From Petasospora fabianii (Eukaryota; Ascomycota; Saccharomycetes; Phaffomycetales; Wickerhamomycetaceae), in assembly GCA_022641835.1 (NCBI GenBank), contig CP048722.1, positions 248,001 through 312,000 of the forward strand: a DNA stretch of 64,000 nucleotides. Direction: 5' to 3'. The number at the start of each line of letters is the position of its first letter. Position 1 is the first letter of the stretch. The position numbers and the translations under genes are program-made. The notes beneath the pieces are model-generated. The model was not told where the DNA came from. It made no database searches and saw only the letters and a program-made list of their open reading frames with translations. Shown here piece by piece: positions 8,570 to 58,682 of the stretch.

Positions 8570-9613
8570 TTACATGACAATGCACTTCTTACCTTTCTTA
8601 TCCTTCTTTTGCTTTTTTTCCTTCTTGGTAACACCTTGATTTCTGCTTGTATCATTTGACTGATCACCTCTACCTCTTCTTTGATACTGTCTTTGAATAG
8701 CAGATGCAGCTCTTTGATCTTCTTCCTCTTGCATCATCATAGCTAATCTTCTATCATCATCCATTTGTTCATCACCACCATCATCGAATGGATTAGAACT
8801 ATCTTCTAATAATGGACTAAAACGACCAGTGAAGAATGAGTTATTGGCACCATTGATACTCAAGAGACTCTCCCAAACATATTGACTCTTATCAAAGAAC
8901 CCTTGGTCAGTGACCAATTGATAGATATCATTTTCAGTCTTTATGATTGTGTTGAAATGGTTATTTCTAAAGAAAACCAAGATTTGACCATCGGTCAAAT
9001 GTCCTTTCAATGCTTGAAGACCATAATCTGTCAATTGGGTTGCGGTTCTCGCAAAGAAATGCTTGATCTTGGAAGAATCATCCAAGATTTCCAAATCAAC
9101 TGCATCTTTAGTGGATTTGTTATCAACGTCATAAGCTTCAATCAATACATTCTGTGCAGCTTCATATGACTTATACTTCATCACAGCATCAAATTCTGCA
9201 TCTTCTGGACTAATAACCCATCCATGTACCATACCAACGTTGAAAACTCTAAAGAGAACCAATTCATCACTCTCTTCAAACCCACCATCAAACCTTGGGT
9301 TGATGTTAGCACCTTCATGAAGAGTCGGCAAAAGTGAAAGAGTCTTATTCACATCATCAGCAGATAATTGAAAGATCTTTGCATTTGCCAATGCAATGTC
9401 TCTTAAGCACTGGGTTAAAGTATCAAGTGTCACAGTATCCTCGCTGTTCACAAGGGCAACTAGTGTATGAACTTCAGGTGGAGAGGTGGCGTTACACGTG
9501 AGCAGTAGGGTGTTGATAAGAGCCAATAGTGCACATGGTCCATTGGCGTTCTGTGTCAAAATGTTACGCACACCATCATATTGAATGGCCTTGGTACGGT
9601 ACTCTGTTGACAT
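8570..9613 (-). CDS. MINDY-family deubiquitinase with CaaX box (MIY1-like)
   Basis: This 347-residue protein belongs to the MINDY/FAM63 cysteine proteases, which trim Lys48-linked ubiquitin chains from the distal end. The catalytic Cys lies in QNANGPCALLAL (about residue 27) and the His in FRNNHFNTI. The C-terminal third is charged, with a Gln/Arg-rich stretch and a lysine-rich tail ending in CIVM. That is a farnesylation-type CaaX box behind a polybasic region, so the protein is probably membrane-tethered. S. cerevisiae homologues are YPL191C (MIY1) and YGL082W; at least the latter is also predicted to be prenylated. Confidence 0.92.
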   Translation of the reverse strand: MSTEYRTKAIQYDGVRNILTQNANGPCALLALINTLLLTCNATSPPEVHTLVALVNSEDTVTLDTLTQCLRDIALANAKIFQLSADDVNKTLSLLPTLHEGANINPRFDGGFEESDELVLFRVFNVGMVHGWVISPEDAEFDAVMKYKSYEAAQNVLIEAYDVDNKSTKDAVDLEILDDSSKIKHFFARTATQLTDYGLQALKGHLTDGQILVFFRNNHFNTIIKTENDIYQLVTDQGFFDKSQYVWESLLSINGANNSFFTGRFSPLLEDSSNPFDDGGDEQMDDDRRLAMMMQEEEDQRAASAIQRQYQRRGRGDQSNDTSRNQGVTKKEKKQKKDKKGKKCIVM

Positions 9614-31050: not shown

Positions 31051-32196
31051 TCACATACGAGCAGATCTTGATGAAGAGACTCTTGTTGATGGAATCACCT
31101 CGGTCAATGGGGGAACTTTTGCAGGTAAACCAGTAGCAACAGATTCCTTAACAGCTTCAATAGCCAACATAACTCTAATACCATCATTTGCAGTACATTT
31201 TGGTTCCTCTTGACCAATGATAACACGTGCAAAGTGTTCTATTTGTAATGCAAATGGAATACCATCAAGTTCTCCACCAAGGGTCTCCTTCTTAATATTC
31301 TTCCACCAACCTGGATTTTCAACCCCTTGTTGATGGTATAGAGTCAAATCAGGTACACTTAGTGAACCTCTTGTACCGAAAAATCTGTAAAAGATACCAT
31401 CATTACTCTGATTCACTTGTGGTATTAATGGATTCTCACCAGTACCCATCTCAAAATTGTTTGGAGCAACAACGTTATCACAAACAACCATTGTTCCCTT
31501 AACACCATTTGTAAAAGTTAGATGCAAAATGACACCTTCCTCCACTGCATCTTCTTTATCATCACTTTGTCTTGTCTTTTTAACTTCTGTTGCGTAAACT
31601 TCCTCAAGGGGACCCAAGAAGTACATTAAAAGATCCAAATCATGAACAACATTGATTTGAATAACACCACCACCTTTACTCTTTTTACCTCTCCAATCCG
31701 TTTCTTCAAAATATTCATCACACTTCTTTAAACACCAAGCTGCATCAAATGCGACAATTTGACCTAATCTCGGTAAATTGTTCTTCGTTGCAACAACGAA
31801 TGGATTAAATCTTCGATGATGACCAACAAGTAATTTGACACCTCTCTTTTGAGCAAGAAGTTTCAACTCCATAGCATCCTGTAAACCAGGACACATTGGT
31901 TTTTCAACAAGGACATTAATTCCAGCTTCAATCAACTCTTTACTAACTTTGAAATGCGTATGGTTAGGTGTACACACAATAGCACCATCAATTTGAACAC
32001 CACTATCAATACATTCTTGTATAGACTCAAAGACACAAGTGTTTGGGAATTTGGATTGTGCAAGATGACGACGTTCTGGTGTTGGTGATGCCTCTATTAT
32101 GGCAAATAGATTTGTGTGGATACATGCATCAACTGATTGACAGTGACGAGGACCTATTCCACCATATCCAACCACAATGAGGTTAAGGACGGACAT
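31051..32196 (-). CDS. Gfo/Idh/MocA-family dehydrogenase, copy 1
   Basis: This 381-residue NAD(P)-dependent oxidoreductase has an N-terminal Rossmann fold with GYGGIGPRH at about residue 8, the catalytic VEKPM motif, GHHRRFNP, and GGGVIQINVVHDLDL. Relatives act on cyclic polyols, sugars or inositol. The true start is the ATG at 32196; the frame is open further upstream, but that part is low-complexity. It is a tandem paralogue of the next gene. Substrate is unknown. Confidence 0.88.
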   Translation of the reverse strand: MSVLNLIVVGYGGIGPRHCQSVDACIHTNLFAIIEASPTPERRHLAQSKFPNTCVFESIQECIDSGVQIDGAIVCTPNHTHFKVSKELIEAGINVLVEKPMCPGLQDAMELKLLAQKRGVKLLVGHHRRFNPFVVATKNNLPRLGQIVAFDAAWCLKKCDEYFEETDWRGKKSKGGGVIQINVVHDLDLLMYFLGPLEEVYATEVKKTRQSDDKEDAVEEGVILHLTFTNGVKGTMVVCDNVVAPNNFEMGTGENPLIPQVNQSNDGIFYRFFGTRGSLSVPDLTLYHQQGVENPGWWKNIKKETLGGELDGIPFALQIEHFARVIIGQEEPKCTANDGIRVMLAIEAVKESVATGLPAKVPPLTEVIPSTRVSSSRSARM

Positions 32197-32854
32197 ATTA
32201 ATGGGGGTGTGTGTAGTATGAAGGGTTGAGCGAAGGTGATGGGTGGAAGGGTTGTATAAGTACTGAATAAGGGTGTAGTTAAAGCTCGAGAGAATTTTTG
32301 AGATCGACACTTTGTTTTGAGACTCGAGACAAGTGCTGCATGAGTCAAACCCCACAGTTTTCTGCATTTTTTTTTTTTTTTCATCCGCAGCAGCCGTTAA
32401 CGCGTGCAGCATATATATATGTTTCATGTTCTGTAAGTATTGGTAGTATCTGCTGTTAATAGTTAGTAGTTGTTGATAGTAGTTGTTATTAGTTGTTATT
32501 GTCAAACTTCAAACGCTTTGCTCCATAAGGGCACACCGTAGCTTGTACCAGCAAGCTATTTGAGATAACACAAGTGATGTTCGAGATCATCAAGAAGAAC
32601 CAGAAAGCCGAAGCGCAAGAGAAAAGAAGAGAGGATTTGCAATAACATTGTTCAATTGAATAGTAACGTAGTACAAATGGGAGCCGACCCAGCAGCATCA
32701 ACCTTGTGACCATAAAATAGCAGATAGGGGAATAAAAAGATAGAAAAAGAAGAAGTAAAAGCAAAAGCAAAGCAAAGTAAAGCAAATCATAGATCATCAT
32801 GTGAATAATTTCATTGAGAAGAGGAGAGTACTATCACCAGGGATAAGAAGAAGT
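32197..32854. other. Intergenic region between the two dehydrogenases
   Basis: The left part is a promoter-like A/C-rich leader for copy 1 (minus strand). A T run of about 15 lies at 32369-32383 and an ACGCGT is at 32399-32404. No gene is supported; frames here are low-complexity. Confidence 0.5.
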
Positions 32855-33958
32855 TTAATAAGTAGCAACGTTGACAGGTAATCCTGTATCCAAAGATTCA
32901 ACAACTGCAGATATAGCTAACATAGCAGCAATACCATCTTCCGGGGTACATCTTGGTTTTTCATGTCCTCTAATAACTTTAGCAAAATGTTCAACTTGAA
33001 GTAAAAATGGGATCCCTTCAACGTTATTTTCAGTTTGTTCTTTAGTAATTGGTTCCCACCAACCTGGTTCCTTTGCATCATCTTGATGGAAGAGTCTAAG
33101 GTCAGGAACCGAGAAAGTACCACGAGTACCAAAGAACCTGTAAAAGACACCATCAATACCTTGTTCATTCTTTGGAATCAATGGGTTTTCACCTGTACCC
33201 ATTTCAAAATTGTATGGAGAAACAACGTTATCACAAACGATAAAGCTTCCCCTAGCACCACTCTTAAATGTTAAGGTTAAGACTGCACCTTCAACAACGG
33301 CATCATCACCAACATTATCCTCTCTAGTCTTTTCACACTCAGTAGCATAGACACTAGTGATTGGACCCAAGAAATATTGCAACAGATCCAAATCGTGTAC
33401 CAAGTTCAAATTGATGACACCACCACCTAGTGACTTAGAACATCTCCATGGGGTAGCTTTGAAATACGTCTCACACTTCTTTGCACACCAAACGGCATCT
33501 ACAGCGATAATCTTACCACATCTTTCCAAATGCTTCTTTGTAGCAAGAACATAAGGGTTGAATCTTCTATGGTGACCAACAATCAATTTGACATCATGCT
33601 CTAGGGCAACTTTGTTAATGGCAAGTGCATCTTCAACAGTTGGGCTGATTGGTTTCTCAACTAAGATGTTCACCTTATGCTTTGCTAGGACTTTAGTGAC
33701 ATCCAAATGGGTACGATTTGGTGTACAAACAATAGCACCATCTGGTTGAAGCCCCTGTTCAAACACTGAATCAAGAGATTTGAAAACTGGAACCTCTGGG
33801 AACTGTTTGCGAGCACGAGCACGTTTAGAACCATCTTTAGAAGTGTCAACAATGGCCAAGAGACGTGTTGTTGGACATTGATCTACTGCTTCAGCGTGGC
33901 GTGGGCCAATGAGGCCATAGCCGATAACGATGATGTTGATAGGAACTGGAACTGTCAT
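32855..33958 (-). CDS. Gfo/Idh/MocA-family dehydrogenase, copy 2
   Basis: This 367-residue paralogue of copy 1 shares the motifs GYGLIGPRH, VEKPISP, GHHRRFNPY and GGGVINLNLVHDLDL, and FRFFGTRG-type residues near the C-terminus (YRFFGTRGTFSVPDL). By eye the two copies agree at over half of positions along their length, so they arose by tandem duplication. Probably cytosolic. The reaction is oxidation of a hydroxyl on a polyol or sugar-like substrate, but the substrate is not set. Confidence 0.9.
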   Translation of the reverse strand: MTVPVPINIIVIGYGLIGPRHAEAVDQCPTTRLLAIVDTSKDGSKRARARKQFPEVPVFKSLDSVFEQGLQPDGAIVCTPNRTHLDVTKVLAKHKVNILVEKPISPTVEDALAINKVALEHDVKLIVGHHRRFNPYVLATKKHLERCGKIIAVDAVWCAKKCETYFKATPWRCSKSLGGGVINLNLVHDLDLLQYFLGPITSVYATECEKTREDNVGDDAVVEGAVLTLTFKSGARGSFIVCDNVVSPYNFEMGTGENPLIPKNEQGIDGVFYRFFGTRGTFSVPDLRLFHQDDAKEPGWWEPITKEQTENNVEGIPFLLQVEHFAKVIRGHEKPRCTPEDGIAAMLAISAVVESLDTGLPVNVATY

Positions 33959-51662: not shown

Positions 51663-53561
51663 ATGATGGGATCATGGAAACTCACGAAGAAGCTAAAGGA
51701 CTTTGGTCGTTCCAAGTCCCCCTCAAAGGAGGACGACGCCGCCTCCATTACACCATCTACAGAGGCTACAGACACCAGTACCGTGTCTTCTGCAAAGGGT
51801 TCCACTCATAATCCAGAAAGCCTTGCCAGAAGAGACACTGTAACGCCTGGGGATGCCTCCGACGCGCTCAAACCGGAACCCCGTGCACTTAATCCCTCCA
51901 CGTCGCATTCATCACATCAGAACACAGACACTGTCCATTCTACCCCACAGGAGAACCTCAGTTCGTTTAAACCGGGTCTCTTGACCATCAAACTTTACAC
52001 GGGAAGTCACTTCAAGATACCTTTCGACATCAACTACGATAAGAATGTCTTGACGCGGATGTACGCTAGTGATAAGACCGACGACACGCTAACGAGAAAA
52101 CTAAACTCCCTCACAATCTCTGATGATAAGCTCGGTCCTGAGGAGTCAAGCTCCCTGATACCATCTACTGTGTCCATCCCACCATCGATCATGAAACACT
52201 CTCTCATCTATCTCACAATGGAATTCGACAAGACAATCGTGTCTCTTGATGCCGATGCCGGTACTATCGCATCACCAGTCTTTAACAAGGTTTCACAGCT
52301 TGATGTCTCCAAAGTCAAAAACGAATTGAAGCTTCAAGTGTTCCTTAAACTGCCATCAGTGCTCCTTGGTACAGAGTCCAACACGTCACAAGACATCCTT
52401 ATCTCTTCTAAGACTATCCCATTGTCGTTTAACAACATCAACAACCCTGTCAGAGTCAAGAATCACGATCGCATCGCCCTTGATAGTGAATACCCAGACT
52501 TTGAGTCCTCCATCAACGGTGACATCACCATCTCCATTGATTTCAAGCCAAATGAAAACAAGCATCTCACCATTGACGACTTCGACCTCTTGAAAGTAAT
52601 TGGTAAGGGTTCATTCGGTAAAGTGATGCAAGTTCGTAAGAAAGATTCTGGTAAGATTTATGCCCTAAAGGCCCTTAGAAAGTCACACATCGTCTCAAGA
52701 TCAGAAGTGACACATACACTGGCCGAGAGAACCGTGTTGGCACGCGTCGATAACCCATTCATTGTTCCTCTCAAGTTTTCATTCCAGTCCCCAGAAAAAT
52801 TGTACTTGGTGTTATCCTTCATCAACGGTGGTGAACTCTTCTATCACTTGCAAAAGGAGGGAAGATTTGATCTTTCCAGAGCTAGATTCTACACTTGTGA
52901 ATTACTTAGTGCCCTCGATAGCTTACACTCATATGACGTCATCTACAGAGATCTTAAGCCAGAGAACATCTTGTTGGACTTTAAAGGTCACATTGCACTC
53001 TGTGATTTTGGTCTTTGCAAGCTCAACATGAAAACTGATGATAAGACGTCAACTTTCTGTGGTACTCCTGAATACCTTGCTCCAGAATTGCTTTTGGGCC
53101 AGGGTTACACCAAGGCTGTTGATTGGTGGACATTGGGTATCTTGCTCTTTGAGATGTTGACAGGTCTACCACCATATTACGATGAAGATGTCCCTACGAT
53201 GTATAGAAAGATCCTTACAAACCCATTGAAGTTCCCGGAGAACTTTGATAGGGACGCTAAGGACTTACTAATTGGTCTATTGGCTCGTGATCCAAAACAG
53301 AGATTGGGATCCAAGGGTGCCGCAGAGATCAGAAATCACGCTTTCTTCAAGATGATTGACTGGAATAAGTTGAACAACAAAGGTTATCTCCCTCCATTCA
53401 GACCACCAGTTAGAGATGGTTCCGATACTTCCAACTTTGACCAAGAATTCACCAATGAACAGCCTGTTGACAGTGTTGTTAACGAATACTTGAGTGACAG
53501 TGTGCAGAAACAGTTTGGTGGTTGGACTTATGTTGGTACTGAGCACATGGGTGACCGTTAG
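51663..53561 (+). CDS. YPK1: AGC protein kinase Ypk1
   Basis: This 632-residue kinase is the yeast SGK orthologue, acting under TORC2 and Pkh1/2 in sphingolipid and membrane-stress control. It has a Ser/Thr-rich N-terminus, a C2-like region (LLTIKLYTGSHFKIPFDI at about 107), and a kinase domain from about residue 305 (IGKGSFGKVMQV, YRDLKPENILL, CDFGLCKL). The activation loop is TFCGTPEYLAPE, and the C-terminal hydrophobic motif is FGGWTYVG. All phosphorylation motifs are intact. The start could be either of two adjacent ATGs. Confidence 0.96.
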   Translation: MMGSWKLTKKLKDFGRSKSPSKEDDAASITPSTEATDTSTVSSAKGSTHNPESLARRDTVTPGDASDALKPEPRALNPSTSHSSHQNTDTVHSTPQENLSSFKPGLLTIKLYTGSHFKIPFDINYDKNVLTRMYASDKTDDTLTRKLNSLTISDDKLGPEESSSLIPSTVSIPPSIMKHSLIYLTMEFDKTIVSLDADAGTIASPVFNKVSQLDVSKVKNELKLQVFLKLPSVLLGTESNTSQDILISSKTIPLSFNNINNPVRVKNHDRIALDSEYPDFESSINGDITISIDFKPNENKHLTIDDFDLLKVIGKGSFGKVMQVRKKDSGKIYALKALRKSHIVSRSEVTHTLAERTVLARVDNPFIVPLKFSFQSPEKLYLVLSFINGGELFYHLQKEGRFDLSRARFYTCELLSALDSLHSYDVIYRDLKPENILLDFKGHIALCDFGLCKLNMKTDDKTSTFCGTPEYLAPELLLGQGYTKAVDWWTLGILLFEMLTGLPPYYDEDVPTMYRKILTNPLKFPENFDRDAKDLLIGLLARDPKQRLGSKGAAEIRNHAFFKMIDWNKLNNKGYLPPFRPPVRDGSDTSNFDQEFTNEQPVDSVVNEYLSDSVQKQFGGWTYVGTEHMGDR

Positions 53562-55463
53562 TTTATGTTATAAGTAAATTGAGCGAAGAATGACATGACA
53601 TGCTAGATTAGTTCGATTTTTTAGATCGTCATTAAGCTTTCCTTCCTGTGACGACTGGGTACCTAGGCTTTAAACTTTGACCTTACAGATTTTTGAAGCA
53701 TGCGGGCAGTGTGACTCCAGATCGTATCAAGGTACGTTTATGCCTCTAATCGGCAAACATCAAGTGTTCTCCGCACAACTGGAAACGGTCCCTTATCCCG
53801 CTAAATCCGTTGCTCATGTGTACCTCATCGGCACCTTCAGTGATGGCCCCTATCTTTCTAGAAACGGATTTTGAGGAGCTGCATTGCTATTAAGCTCAAG
53901 TTGACAGTGTTAGGGTTATCGGGTATTTCGCTGATGTGTTCATATACTTTTAAATTTCTTCGTCCGGGTGGCTATTGAGTTTGATGGTGGGATTATGTAT
54001 GTAAATCAGATACTTTGCTGTCTGTTGATTGATTGGATGTCGATTGATCGTAGCTGGATCGACCCACTGTAACGTTCCAAACTCATATGTAACTCTGGCC
54101 CCTAGTTGCGACGCCAATGATTCATGCCTCGGGAAATTAGCATTTCGGCAGCACAATAAAAAAGTCTCATTCTGTGCCATTAATCTGTCTATTCTCGGAA
54201 AGCACAGAGCTGACTCTTTCCGAGACCGAGACCCAAACACAAGCGGCAAAGTACCATGGGCACACCCAAAGTCGTGCTCGCAGGAGAGAGAAAGGAAACG
54301 GTCAACTTGCATGAAGCCACAGGAAGTGCATGAAGAGAAAGAAAAGAAGGCATCGATGCTGTGTCTACCATCAGCCCATTTGGTGACAACTTCTATTACG
54401 CTTTGGACAGGCAGCTAGCACTAGAATCGGTGGATTAGTACAAAACGAACCTCAGTATTCTTGTTTGTTCCATACGCTATACAACTGGAGATTGGATGAT
54501 CTCCTTCGTGCGATCGCTGGTACAGGACCACAGCTGCCTCCGAGCAACGATGATAACTGATCAAGCAAATGCTCAGAATCAATTAACAAGCACTGTAGAT
54601 TTGACGCCGCATACTATGGAGAAACCTCGCGTGCTAACTCGGATTTATCATATCGAAGCCGGGGCGGACTTAGTCGGTAACACCGCTAATTATCTATCTG
54701 TGCATCCAAGAATGTGCAGGGCGTCGATTCACCAATTTCAAGGCCAGTGATAGTCTCAGCAGTATGATCACATCATAAAAATCAGTGCCAAGGTGTCTAT
54801 GTTCTCTCCACGTTCTCTCCACAATCCCGCAACACTGTAAATTCCGTGTCAATACACCTATCGGATCCAACTATCATCTGCGTTGCAGATCACGCAGGCC
54901 AAGTAGGTGTCTCTAGTCAGGACTAGCTCGCACTAAGGAGAGGATTGCTTTTGCCCCGAAGCCTAGAAGCACATGAAGAAACCTGCTCTAGGGCTCACGT
55001 CGCCCTTTGGAAGATTGGAGAGAAACGGAAAAAAAACTTCGCCGTTGAAACCGTTTATGCAAGTATCTGCATAATGATACATAAACTGGCGGCGTCCTGC
55101 AGAAACTGTTTTTAAAATTTCTTTTTCCGCCATCGGTGTCACCACCAAAAAATCCTAGAATCTTAGCGACGTTTCCGAAAGTCGCCGGGCCGACCTGCAA
55201 GCAGAAACTGTTATATAGGAATTTCTGCACCCATTAGATTCGCTTTGGCAGAAACAAACCACAATTTAACCCGTCACACCTCGCCAACATCTTGTTCAAC
55301 AGAGAGTTCCCAGGCCCGCACAATCGATCCTAGAGCAACCACCTACAGACAAACACACACAACTCCATCTGCTTCCCCTCCTTTTTTTACTAAAAGTCTT
55401 AACGATTGTAACTGTGTTCAAATCCGTCAAACGACAGTTTTCCGCCACAGAGAATATCAAACA
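53562..55463. other. 1.9-kb gene-free region with atypical composition
   Basis: No protein gene is supported, although short frames occur on both strands (for example 54029-54418 and 53950-54312, which overlap in antisense). From about 53640 to 55200 the sequence is richer in CG dinucleotides and lacks the AT tracts typical of other gaps here. It holds an 11-bp tandem repeat (GTTCTCTCCAC at 54801 and 54812) and a 10-bp inverted repeat at 54193-54225. Repeated GCAGAAAC motifs lie just before the Ras-like gene. It could hold a non-coding RNA, an origin or decayed coding DNA. Confidence 0.5.
55099..55255 (+). promoter_or_regulatory. Repeated GCAGAAAC motif upstream of the Ras-like gene
   Basis: GCAGAAACTGTT occurs at 55099-55110 and again at 55201-55212, with GCAGAAAC at 55248-55255 and the reverse TTTCTGC at 55222-55228. 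A TATATA-like TTATATAG is at 55211-55218. This suggests binding sites for one factor at the Ras-like promoter. Confidence 0.5.
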
Positions 55464-56276
55464 ATGCTATCTCATAAGGAGAACATCAAAATCTGTGTCC
55501 TTGGCCAACTCGGCGTAGGCAAGTCCAGCTTGACGCTCCAGTTCACGCAACATCATTTCCCAACCAGTTTTGATCCATACGTTGAGGATGTCTACCAGAG
55601 AGACGTTGTCGTTGGCGACAAGACCTACACAATCCATGTCCTTGACACCGCCGTCCAGGATGAGTACTCACCTTTGAAAGACCTTCAACTCAAAGAAGCA
55701 GACGCCATCATGCTCGTTTACAGTATTGGAAGCGTTGAATCTTTCTCGAAGATCGGCGACTCATATAGACACATCATGAGAAACCATGAAACATTCCCAC
55801 CAGTTGCCCTTGTCGCTAACCAGTCTGACCTCGTTGGATCCAGACAAGTCGGAACTTCCGAAGGTGAAGAGCTTGCTAGAGAATTTGGTATTAAACAGTA
55901 CATGGAGACCAGTGCTAAGCTCAATCTGAATATTACAGAGGCTTTCATGGGTCTCATTGACCAAGTCATCGCATCTCGTGCGGAGAAGGCATCCTCTGCT
56001 TTCCTTTCCTCTTCTGAGGACGACTTTGCTGAGAAGAAGCCACTGCGTTCACACAGGGCCAGATCCCCAACTCTGTCTGAGACCTCCAAGCCCAAGACAT
56101 TCACCATCGGTGCCTCCTTGGAAAGACAGTCTACTGAATCTAGTGATGAAGCACCTGACCAGAGTGTTGCCTCTAGACAGAAGCAAATCACAAAGAGAAC
56201 TAGTCAGCAGAAGAAGCTCAACAAGACCAAGGACTCAGAAAAGGAATCCAGTGGTGGTTGCTGTATTGTCATGTGA
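55464..56276 (+). CDS. Ras-family GTPase with degenerate nucleotide-binding motifs
   Basis: This 270-residue protein is Ras-like throughout but departs from consensus in most GTPase motifs. The P-loop GQLGVGKS has Leu16 where Ras has Gly12. Switch I reads FDPYVEDVY, with Tyr39 replacing the Mg-binding Thr35. Switch II reads DTAVQDEY, with Val64 replacing the invariant Gly60. The base-binding NKxD is NQSD (residues 119-122). ETSAK is kept. A Ser-rich extension leads to a basic tail ending GGCCIVM, a CaaX box with an extra Cys for palmitoylation. I chose the first ATG in frame. It may be a membrane-anchored pseudo-GTPase or a slow, constitutively active one. Confidence 0.87.
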   Translation: MLSHKENIKICVLGQLGVGKSSLTLQFTQHHFPTSFDPYVEDVYQRDVVVGDKTYTIHVLDTAVQDEYSPLKDLQLKEADAIMLVYSIGSVESFSKIGDSYRHIMRNHETFPPVALVANQSDLVGSRQVGTSEGEELAREFGIKQYMETSAKLNLNITEAFMGLIDQVIASRAEKASSAFLSSSEDDFAEKKPLRSHRARSPTLSETSKPKTFTIGASLERQSTESSDEAPDQSVASRQKQITKRTSQQKKLNKTKDSEKESSGGCCIVM

Positions 56277-56368
56277 AGCCTGTTATAGTCTGATATCTCT
56301 GCTTTCATTTGCTCTATCATTTGTTCTGTTGTCTTTTCCTCTTTTTACTTTCATGCATATTTTTTTTC

Positions 56369-56411
<43 letters not shown>

Positions 56412-56726
56412 TCTTTTGTTTTCATCATTGGTTCGTCATATTATTGTTAATCTTTGCATCCATTTCCTCTCTCATCTTATCTGTTTTTCTGCATATCTTC
56501 TGGAGTTTTGTTTGTTTGTGTTAGTGTGTCTGCATTACATTCCTCGTTTGAATGTTCATTATACCTGTTGAAGTCTATAGAATGAATAAATCCGATCAGT
56601 ATTAAGGCGACCCATTTCGGTCATGTAATACGGCAACAGCTGTTCCATAAATTTCATGTAGAGTAACCTATGAAGTAATATAAATCTATAAATCTAACCC
56701 ACCGTCCCTTTCCATGTGTAAAACCA
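56277..56726. other. Convergent intergenic region with CT microsatellite
   Basis: A (CT)n tract at 56369-56414 lies in the 3' region of the Ras-like gene. The rest is AT-rich and holds no gene. Confidence 0.7.
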
Positions 56727-58682
56727 CTATTCCATAGCATCCTTCGTGTTCAACATTACCCTCACCTTGAAAGCAAACCAGCTTTCTAAACCATCTCTTG
56801 GCACCACAACTCCTGGGCCCTTGATTTCAAAAATGCACTTATCCACTTTGATAAATCTGATTCTCCTATTTTCTGCACTGATAGCTAGTGCGACATGCTG
56901 GACTCTCAACCAATCATCCAAAACACCATCATGAACAACCTGTAAAGCCATATGAGGAGCACCACCAGCACCGGATCCAAACAACTCAAAATACTTCAAG
57001 TTTGGCAAAGTGCTGGCCAAGGCTGGGGCACATGGTTGGAGCGAGTATCCATGAAGACGGAGTGCTTCCAAGGACTTCATCTGACTGAGTTCCATTAAGC
57101 ACTCTGGGAAGATGAGCTTATGGAAGTCAGAGAACACAGAATCCTCTTTGGTATCCAAGGAGAGTTTCTTCAAAGTTGATGAGTGCTTTAAAATGGCCTT
57201 GATGTAGTGATGACACAAATGTTTCCATGATGCGACTGAGCAGAGTTTTGTCACGTTCCAACGGATGGTGACATCCAACTCCTCAAGACCATCCAGACTA
57301 TGGATAAATGCCGGTATAGAGTCTCTCAAGCTCTCCCTGTAGTCAATAGAGAGCTTCTTCAACCCCTTCAGATGCTTACCAAAAGATCTTAAGAACCCTG
57401 TGTCAAGCTTCGTATACAACTCATTTAGAGAAAGTGGAGAATCGATATCCTCTGGAAGCTGGATTTCTGAAATATTCTTCAACTCAAGGAATTCCACACC
57501 TTTGAGATTGATAAAAGAAGCCATCCTCTGTGCATCGGCAGTGGTGATTACCATCGAGTCCAACGACAACATCTTCAACTCATTTAGCTGGGACTCGGCA
57601 GCACTAAATAAAATGAACAAGTTCAGGATACAGTTCAATTCGAACTCTGAGATTTTGATTCTGTCGTGTTCGATAATATAGTTGGTCAACACGAGTACCT
57701 GAGTTGCTGGATTCTTGAGGAACCCATGGTTACTATTGAATCTTGCAAGCCTTAACACTCTCAAGTTCAAAAAGTCATTATTTCCTTCCAACAAGTTTTT
57801 AAAAATTTGAAACAAGTTGAAGGCGTTCAAGAAGGGTTCAATCGAGAGCACATGGAGATTTGTGAACTCTCTGAATGGTGTGAAGCCTGATGGGCTGGCA
57901 ACACGTTTGAAGTCAACGTTGAGACTGAGCTCCATAAGACGGTGCTTGTTTGGGATCCGACTTAGGATCTCAAGCTGAAGTTCCTTTTCTGATTCCCAGT
58001 AGAAGCGGGTGATGTGGTCAAGCTTCTTTACCGACATGAAAGTGAAGAAGTTAAGGTCAAAGGGCGTGTAGAAGCCATCTGGTAACTCCACGAAACGCAA
58101 CTCATTGATAAAAGTTGAATAATGTGGACGTGTGGCCTCTTGACCAACTGTGAAGGGAATCTCTTGACCAATAGTTTTCAGAAAGTGCTTCAAGCTGTAT
58201 CTCAACTTGACAAAGGTGGATGTGTACACATCAACGGTAGTTGCTTCATCTTGCTCAAAGACTTCCTCGTTGAAGTGAGAAAACGAAGGATTCACAATAA
58301 CTGTATGATACAATCTTGCCACAGTAGATGCAAAAAAGGCCTTGTTCACACGAAGAAGCGATACAGCGTCATACTGGGATAACCTATTGGCAATGTGGAA
58401 ACGTACCTCAAAGGGAAGCTTATCAATGTAAGACTGCGGCCTCTGTAACCTTGAAAACAGCGTAGGACTCGTTCCTTCCAGTGATTCTGTTCTTCTGCTT
58501 CCTCCATAAGTATAGTGATTGTCTTGTAAAGCCAGACCTTGTGCTGTTAAGATGTTCCTTCCTGACGACACGAAGGGTAAGATGGATGATACTGAGTGGG
58601 GCTCTCTAGAGCGCTCACTGGATTCCCGATACGGGGCGCCTGCGTGGCCAACAGGTGCAGTGAGGCAATAAGGCGTGTACAT
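56727..58682 (-). CDS. F-box/leucine-rich-repeat protein
   Basis: This 651-residue protein has an F-box-like segment at about residues 85-125 (IDKLPFEVRFHIANRLSQYD, followed by LLRVNKAFF). About 500 residues of irregular leucine-rich repeats follow (LHVLSIEPF, LRVLRLARF, LNELKMLSLDS, LKKLSLDTK). Such proteins recruit substrates to SCF ubiquitin ligases. S. cerevisiae YDR306C is a plausible relative, but I cannot confirm orthology. The ATG at 58682 opens a Ser/Arg-rich N-terminus. Confidence 0.78.
   Translation of the reverse strand: MYTPYCLTAPVGHAGAPYRESSERSREPHSVSSILPFVSSGRNILTAQGLALQDNHYTYGGSRRTESLEGTSPTLFSRLQRPQSYIDKLPFEVRFHIANRLSQYDAVSLLRVNKAFFASTVARLYHTVIVNPSFSHFNEEVFEQDEATTVDVYTSTFVKLRYSLKHFLKTIGQEIPFTVGQEATRPHYSTFINELRFVELPDGFYTPFDLNFFTFMSVKKLDHITRFYWESEKELQLEILSRIPNKHRLMELSLNVDFKRVASPSGFTPFREFTNLHVLSIEPFLNAFNLFQIFKNLLEGNNDFLNLRVLRLARFNSNHGFLKNPATQVLVLTNYIIEHDRIKISEFELNCILNLFILFSAAESQLNELKMLSLDSMVITTADAQRMASFINLKGVEFLELKNISEIQLPEDIDSPLSLNELYTKLDTGFLRSFGKHLKGLKKLSIDYRESLRDSIPAFIHSLDGLEELDVTIRWNVTKLCSVASWKHLCHHYIKAILKHSSTLKKLSLDTKEDSVFSDFHKLIFPECLMELSQMKSLEALRLHGYSLQPCAPALASTLPNLKYFELFGSGAGGAPHMALQVVHDGVLDDWLRVQHVALAISAENRRIRFIKVDKCIFEIKGPGVVVPRDGLESWFAFKVRVMLNTKDAME

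Follow-up and report, generated by a model that had tools for sequence, protein, structure and literature searches.

The window, a 64-kb stretch of DNA analyzed here from a genome that totals 12.34 Mb in 16 contigs and whose genes read as those of a yeast, contains the gene of an atypical Ras protein. We tentatively propose that its product is a rapidly evolved second Ras-subfamily protein, which is tethered to the membrane, binds nucleotide, is stuck in the off state and probably restrains Ras signalling. This reading has a real chance of being correct, and we hold it with some reserve.

Results

An open reading frame with altered GTPase motifs

The features of the gene and its surroundings are listed in Table 1. 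The reading frame is uninterrupted over 270 codons from the ATG to the stop and encodes a protein of the Ras family. The Pfam Ras profile recognizes the protein with 141.6 bits, far above the cut-off of 21.6, and K-Ras chains in the PDB match it at about 3e-32.

Table 1. Coordinates of the Ras gene, its motifs and neighbouring features in the window.
Feature	Positions	Strand	Basis
Gene of atypical second Ras, 270 aa	55464..56276	+	ORF; PF00071 141.6 bits
G1/P-loop GQLGVGKS, Leu at Ras position 12 (CTC, 55509-55511)	55503..55526	+	translation, alignment
Switch I FDPYVEDV, Phe at Tyr32 (TTT, 55569-55571), Tyr at Thr35 (TAC, 55578-55580)	55569..55592	+	alignment
G3 DTAVQ, Val at Gly60 (GTC, 55653-55655), Gln61 kept	55644..55658	+	alignment
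G4 NQSD, Gln at Lys117 (CAG, 55821-55823)	55818..55829	+	alignment
G5 ETSAK, canonical	55905..55919	+	alignment
Polar hypervariable linker, ~90 residues	55989..56258	+	translation; limits by analogy with Ras
CCIVM tail, predicted farnesylation at CIVM; adjoining Cys may be palmitoylated	56259..56273	+	motif only
Four GCAGAAA words (three +, one -), two inside the 12-mer GCAGAAACTGTT; possible regulatory sites	55099..55254	+	word count
Protein kinase with Pkinase_C domain, neighbour	51663-53561		profile match
Leucine-rich-repeat-like protein, neighbour	56727-58682		19.4 bits, under Pfam cut-off of 40

The initial annotation had listed Leu at Gly12, Tyr at Thr35, Val at Gly60 and NQSD for NKxD as departures from the Ras consensus, with Gln61, ETSAK and a CCIVM box retained. 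Translation and alignment of the frame confirm every one of these residues. The list had however overlooked a further change in switch I, Phe for Tyr32. In Ras numbering the protein keeps G10, G13, G15, K16, S17, F28, D57, T58, A59 and Q61, together with N116, D119, S145, A146 and K147. Its last residues are SGGCCIVM, in which SGG precedes CCIVM as it does in the tail of the yeast's own canonical Ras (locus L003; SGGCCVIA).

The codons for Leu12 and Tyr35 are each at least two base changes away from any Gly or Thr codon; hence a single base-calling error cannot produce them. A reassigned CUG codon was also considered as the source of the odd residues and was rejected. The altered motif codons include no CTG, and CTG occupies conserved Leu sites, for example in the FPLLTTK motif of thymidylate synthase (judged by eye). 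The latter indicates that this yeast probably does not belong to the CUG-Ser clade.

Conservation of the altered positions

The PF00071 profile gave 36 matches in the genome including the window gene; the remainder lie in 32 loci. The first alignment combined 18 small GTPases of this yeast with the window protein and seven references. Because six of these references were entered by hand, the residue counts were repeated with tool-derived rows. Loci L017, L021 and L024-L032 are outside the alignment. The trees omit L016, L018, L022 and L023; the tool-derived counts omit the same four and add the partial L014, L015 and L020.

Positions 12 and 117 are not invariant in the family. Of the 25 rows compared, 12 have Gly12 and 13 lack it, and among the yeast's 18 aligned GTPases the numbers are 6 and 12; in the aligned rows, most Rabs carry Ser at this position and Rheb carries Arg. 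Gln at position 117 also occurs in the yeast's own Cdc42. Since a residue other than Gly12 is common and Cdc42 has Gln117, these two substitutions are tolerated elsewhere in GTPases and are weak evidence. The initial view that each of the four changes is harmful by itself is thus not supported in that form.

Tyr35 and Val60, on the other hand, are radical changes. In the tool-derived set Thr35 is kept in 19/19 and Gly60 in 20/20 rows that have a letter there; in the wider set the counts are 24/25, with L023 as the exception, and 25/25. Across ten further rows of the Ras subfamily, of which six were entered by hand, 26 columns are invariant. The window protein has lost seven of these (Y32F, T35Y, I36V, K42R, G60V, G77A and K117Q) and keeps 19. 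If only the six tool-derived rows are used, 8/32 invariant columns are lost, namely the same seven and G115A. The chance that positions 32, 35 and 60 all fall among 7/26 lost columns is 0.013, a value computed post hoc. In place of the Thr35, Gly60 and NKxD that mark the Ras subfamily, the window protein thus has Y35, V60 and NQSD. Its effector loop reads FDPYVEDVY where a canonical Ras has YDPTIEDSY, and 5/9 of its residues are identical to L003, which sets it apart from a canonical Ras; D33, P34, E37, D38 and Y40 are kept.

L023 (G000:C2:1757205-1757687, minus strand) is a Rho-like protein with a CTVM CaaX box. Thr35 is replaced by Phe and Gln61 by Ser, and neither an NKxD nor a SAK motif can be recognised, which makes L023 a stronger candidate for a pseudo-GTPase than the window protein.

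Phylogenetic position

A phmmer search over the ORFs of the 32 GTPase loci matched 25 ORF pieces. The canonical Ras L003 scored 130 bits, Rsr1 (L008) 94 and Rheb (L019) 85. The window protein and L003 are 39% identical over 167 columns. The yeast's Rheb ends in KCIVM, unlike the SGGCC tails of the window protein and L003.

Two trees place the window protein in a Ras/Rsr1/Rheb clade that is separate from Rho and Rab (starred support, 100/97). Its end branch, about 2 changes per site, is about 14 times longer than that of L003. Within the clade its partner in both best trees is Rheb, but the support is unstarred (60/78 and 66/82), and a weak join of this sort is typical of long branches. AU tests rejected none of the other unions: with L003 and a hand-entered ScRas2 (p 0.378), with L003, R-Ras2 and KRAS in the second tree (p 0.137), with Rsr1 (p 0.161) and with a hand-entered Neurospora Ras-2 (p 0.338). 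As the order within the clade is weakly supported, the term Ras paralogue follows from the tail and the pairwise scores and not from the tree. The window protein is a member of the Ras/Rsr1/Rheb subfamily and, by its tail, most probably a Ras paralogue. It was rejected as the genome's Rheb orthologue, for which L019 is the better candidate (best PDB match Rheb), and as its Rsr1 orthologue, L008 being a clear Rsr1 (best PDB match Rap1b).

Four pattern matches in viral contigs included no relative. The 253 pattern matches in prokaryote genomes included one relative, an archaeal Ras-like protein. This protein (L045, JAEOSI010000001.1) comes from a Wukongarchaeum, carries GQGRVGKT and DTGGQE, and is the sole relative in the prokaryote collection.

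Constraint and codon use

The window gene differs from L003 by 0.497, 0.377 and 0.671 at codon positions 1, 2 and 3, while neutral runs to equal identity, with point changes only, gave a difference of about 0.35 at each position. Part of the third-position excess stems from the L003 branch. Of 500 neutral runs that began with L003 and ended at 39% identity, not one kept its frame open (mean of 6.9 stops); an intact frame at such divergence is therefore not expected by drift.

The initial annotation had described the frame as intact, which it is, and the codons as normal, which holds in part. Codon use departs strongly from a random choice among synonymous codons (z 6.3), but the gene ranks in the bottom quarter of the window genes when each is scored for its likeness to the others: -1.11 per codon, where the others range from -1.15 to -0.89 with a lower quartile of -1.07. 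When two highly expressed genes of the window serve as reference, its codon adaptation is 0.409, the third highest among the 27 window genes other than these two. The raised GC3 of the gene is common to nearby genes. The open frame, the third-position excess and the codon adaptation argue against long neutrality, although they are no substitute for dN/dS.

Upstream words, neighbours and pathway genes

The promoter had been called unusual in vague terms, and the only feature that could be matched to this description is the GCAGAAA cluster. With both strands counted, the 64 kb contain 17 copies of the word, four of which form the cluster upstream of the gene (Table 1). Of the three genomic copies of the 12-mer GCAGAAACTGTT, two lie upstream of the window Ras at a spacing of 102 bases; the reversed control likewise has three copies. 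A looser form has seven genome matches versus 22 for the reversed control. Since the reversed controls are as frequent or commoner, the word is not enriched genome-wide. Only the local clustering of GCAGAAA is notable, and it was seen post hoc.

A CT-rich run (56366-56418) follows the stop codon of the Ras gene at a distance of about 90 bases. Elsewhere in the window, a MINDY deubiquitinase on the minus strand (8570-9613; PF04424, 252.6 bits) ends in KKCIVM and so has the same CaaX box as the window Ras and the yeast's Rheb. Two adjoining and similar GFO/IDH-type-like oxidoreductases, also on the minus strand (31051-32427 and 32855-33958), are by eye an apparent tandem duplication.

Besides the canonical Ras, Rsr1 and Rheb, the genome has profile matches to four RasGEF domains, four RasGAP domains in three genes and one adenylyl cyclase. 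By eye and by layout these appear to include Cdc25-, Ira-, Bud2-, IQGAP- and Cyr1-like proteins. A search with the RA profile PF00788 found a match in one gene only and none in the adenylyl cyclase.

Discussion

The altered residues suggest in which direction the switch may be blocked. In active Ras, Thr35 and Gly60 are described as hydrogen-bonding the gamma-phosphate, and the H-Ras mutants Y32F, T35S and G60A as residing predominantly in the inactive state 1 (PMC4867591). The same three positions are altered in the window protein. The H-Ras mutants are single and made in the laboratory, whereas the window protein has all three changes naturally, as Phe, Tyr and Val. A narrow search of the open-licence literature on these sites found no report of the F32/Y35/V60 combination in a natural Ras. 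The laboratory variant Rheb-G63V, with the same Gly-to-Val change, gave no rise in S6 phosphorylation and is described as inactive; GTPgammaS beads pulled down substantially less of it than of Rheb-G63A, and the proposed GEF ATP6AP1 bound it more than the wild type (PMC11061317). Val60, Tyr35 and Phe32 are all expected to disfavour the GTP-on shape, so that the direction of a lock is probably off. Reportedly, the original Rheb study found that Val at Gly63 blocks GTP binding and not GDP binding. The initial annotation had offered a pseudo-GTPase or a permanently locked form. The former is probably too strong a term, since the tabulated phosphate and base contacts are kept except T35, G60 and K117; a lock is plausible, with off as its probable direction. 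Of the readings considered, the likeliest is thus a membrane-anchored Ras held off, as opposed to a Ras held on or a nucleotide-free pseudo-GTPase.

On this basis we propose the following mechanism. A farnesyl group, and perhaps a palmitoyl group too, would tether the protein to the membrane. It would bind guanine nucleotide yet be unable to adopt the GTP-on shape: Val60 would crowd the gamma-phosphate, and Tyr35 with Phe32 would remove the contacts that close switch I. The protein would then remain in the GDP or state-1 shape. Located at the same membrane as the normal Ras, it would most likely restrain Ras signalling, for instance by occupying a Cdc25-like RasGEF or other partners, comparable to the lowering of cAMP by C. 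albicans Ras2. The firm placement in the Ras/Rsr1/Rheb clade, the signs of constraint on the gene and the presence of RasGEF, RasGAP and adenylyl cyclase genes also speak for this model. That it is a natural, constitutively off Ras in which selection put the changes at 32, 35 and 60, among them Y32F exactly as in H-Ras and the Gly-to-Val change that inactivates Rheb, and serves as a membrane-anchored Ras inhibitor in a yeast probably outside the CUG-Ser clade, is possible but less likely than not. Several observations stand against the off model. Leu12 alone would favour the GTP form, and the retained D33, P34, E37, D38 and Y40 would be needless for a pure decoy. The codons of the gene resemble those of the other window genes less than most do, and the one RA match lies outside the adenylyl cyclase. 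A kappaB-Ras with G64A, the Gly60 equivalent, still hydrolyses GTP (PMC12314375), and Rheb-G63A is described as active (PMC11061317); the effect of a change at the Gly60 site hence varies with the protein and the residue. Only 6/14 presumed GEF-contact residues match L003, and GEF trapping is consequently not specially supported.

The substitutions can also be read as those of a constitutively GTP-loaded or fast-cycling Ras-like protein, in which Leu12 would block hydrolysis, Gln117 would speed exchange and compensation would lead to a private effector. Such a protein is unlikely: it would account for Leu12 and for the 5/9 effector-loop residues kept, and Rnd and RhoH, which lack Gly12, as well as the fast-exchanging kappaB-Ras are described as constantly GTP-bound, but Val60 and Tyr35 occupy both gamma-phosphate contacts. 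The inactivity of Rheb-G63V and its recovery on GTPgammaS beads, lower than that of G63A (PMC11061317), point in the same direction, and kappaB-Ras itself retains Thr and Gly at the equivalents of 35 and 60 (PMC12314375). A nucleotide-free pseudo-GTPase that acts as a membrane-anchored scaffold would be consistent with substitutions in G1, G2, G3 and G4. A structure model built from a two-row alignment, and weak (mean pLDDT 66.6, pTM 0.67), has low confidence at the P-loop, switch I, G3 and near G4/G5. The retention of K16, S17, F28, D57, N116, D119, S145 and A146 makes a scaffold of this kind quite unlikely, and the same genome holds a clearer motif-loser in L023. Among the 50 PDB matches listed, GDP- and GTP-bound chains of Ras, Rap, Rheb and Rab are mixed, so they are uninformative on the nucleotide state.

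A long end branch (1.96 changes per site versus 0.14 for the canonical Ras) and codon use in the lower quarter by likeness would suit a relic, a duplicated Ras on which constraint has relaxed and which is decaying into a pseudogene. We consider this very unlikely in view of the open frame, the largely kept G1, G4, G5 and CaaX motifs and the third-position excess of changes, to which the complete loss of open frames in the neutral runs and the high rank in codon adaptation can be added. The join to Rheb in both best trees, the union with Rsr1 that the AU test did not reject and the fact that Rheb, too, lacks Gly12 could all indicate a divergent extra Rheb or Rsr1, in which the position-12 change would be ordinary. 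This is highly improbable: a clear Rheb and a clear Rsr1 exist elsewhere in the genome, the pairwise scores and the SGGCC tail favour Ras, and long-branch pull is likely. An off-locked Ras that still binds nucleotide would fit the pattern better than a dead or an always-on form.

Compared with the canonical fungal Ras L003, the window protein shares the Ras domain, G5, the SGGCC tail and the long polar linker, and differs by F32, Y35, V60, L12 and Q117 and by its longer end branch. It resembles Rheb as a Ras-subfamily protein with a residue other than Gly at position 12 and a CaaX box, but natural Rheb keeps Thr35 and Gly60 and the genome has its own Rheb. Leu at position 12 is also present in kappaB-Ras (NKIRAS). 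This non-canonical member of the Ras family is described as limiting a Ras-type pathway; unlike the window protein, it is without Gln61 and a membrane-targeting motif and keeps the Thr35 and Gly60 equivalents (PMC12314375).

The closest parallel is C. albicans Ras2, and by its description the window gene is of the same kind. Published accounts call C. albicans Ras2 an atypical Ras, with variant conserved motifs and a CCIIT tail, and ascribe to it a negative effect on Cyr1 activity. Its deletion in a ras1 background brought cAMP back to about 30% of wild type and yet made the hyphal defect worse, and in the proposal of one group it feeds a MAPK pathway after activation by Cdc25 (PMC9959987, PMC5798406). 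In both yeasts a second, divergent Ras with altered motifs and a dual-Cys CaaX tail (CCIIT there, CCIVM here) is present beside a canonical one. In contrast, C. albicans Ras2 is given as 25-30% identical to other fungal Ras proteins, where the window protein reaches 39% with its own Ras, and by BLAST the sole close relative named for it is a protein of C. dubliniensis (PMC5798406). The CTG codons at conserved Leu sites are a further difference from the C. albicans setting.

If the off model is true, this yeast would have a natural dominant-negative Ras beside its normal Ras, which would show how a frozen switch can serve cells as a brake on Ras. Ras proteins with a dominant-negative effect are well known from laboratory mutants, and H-Ras G60A is termed dominant negative in the title of one paper. 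The finding would also be relevant to what Ras state 1 does, about which little is said to be known (PMC4867591), and would suggest by what mechanism C. albicans Ras2 acts negatively on cAMP.
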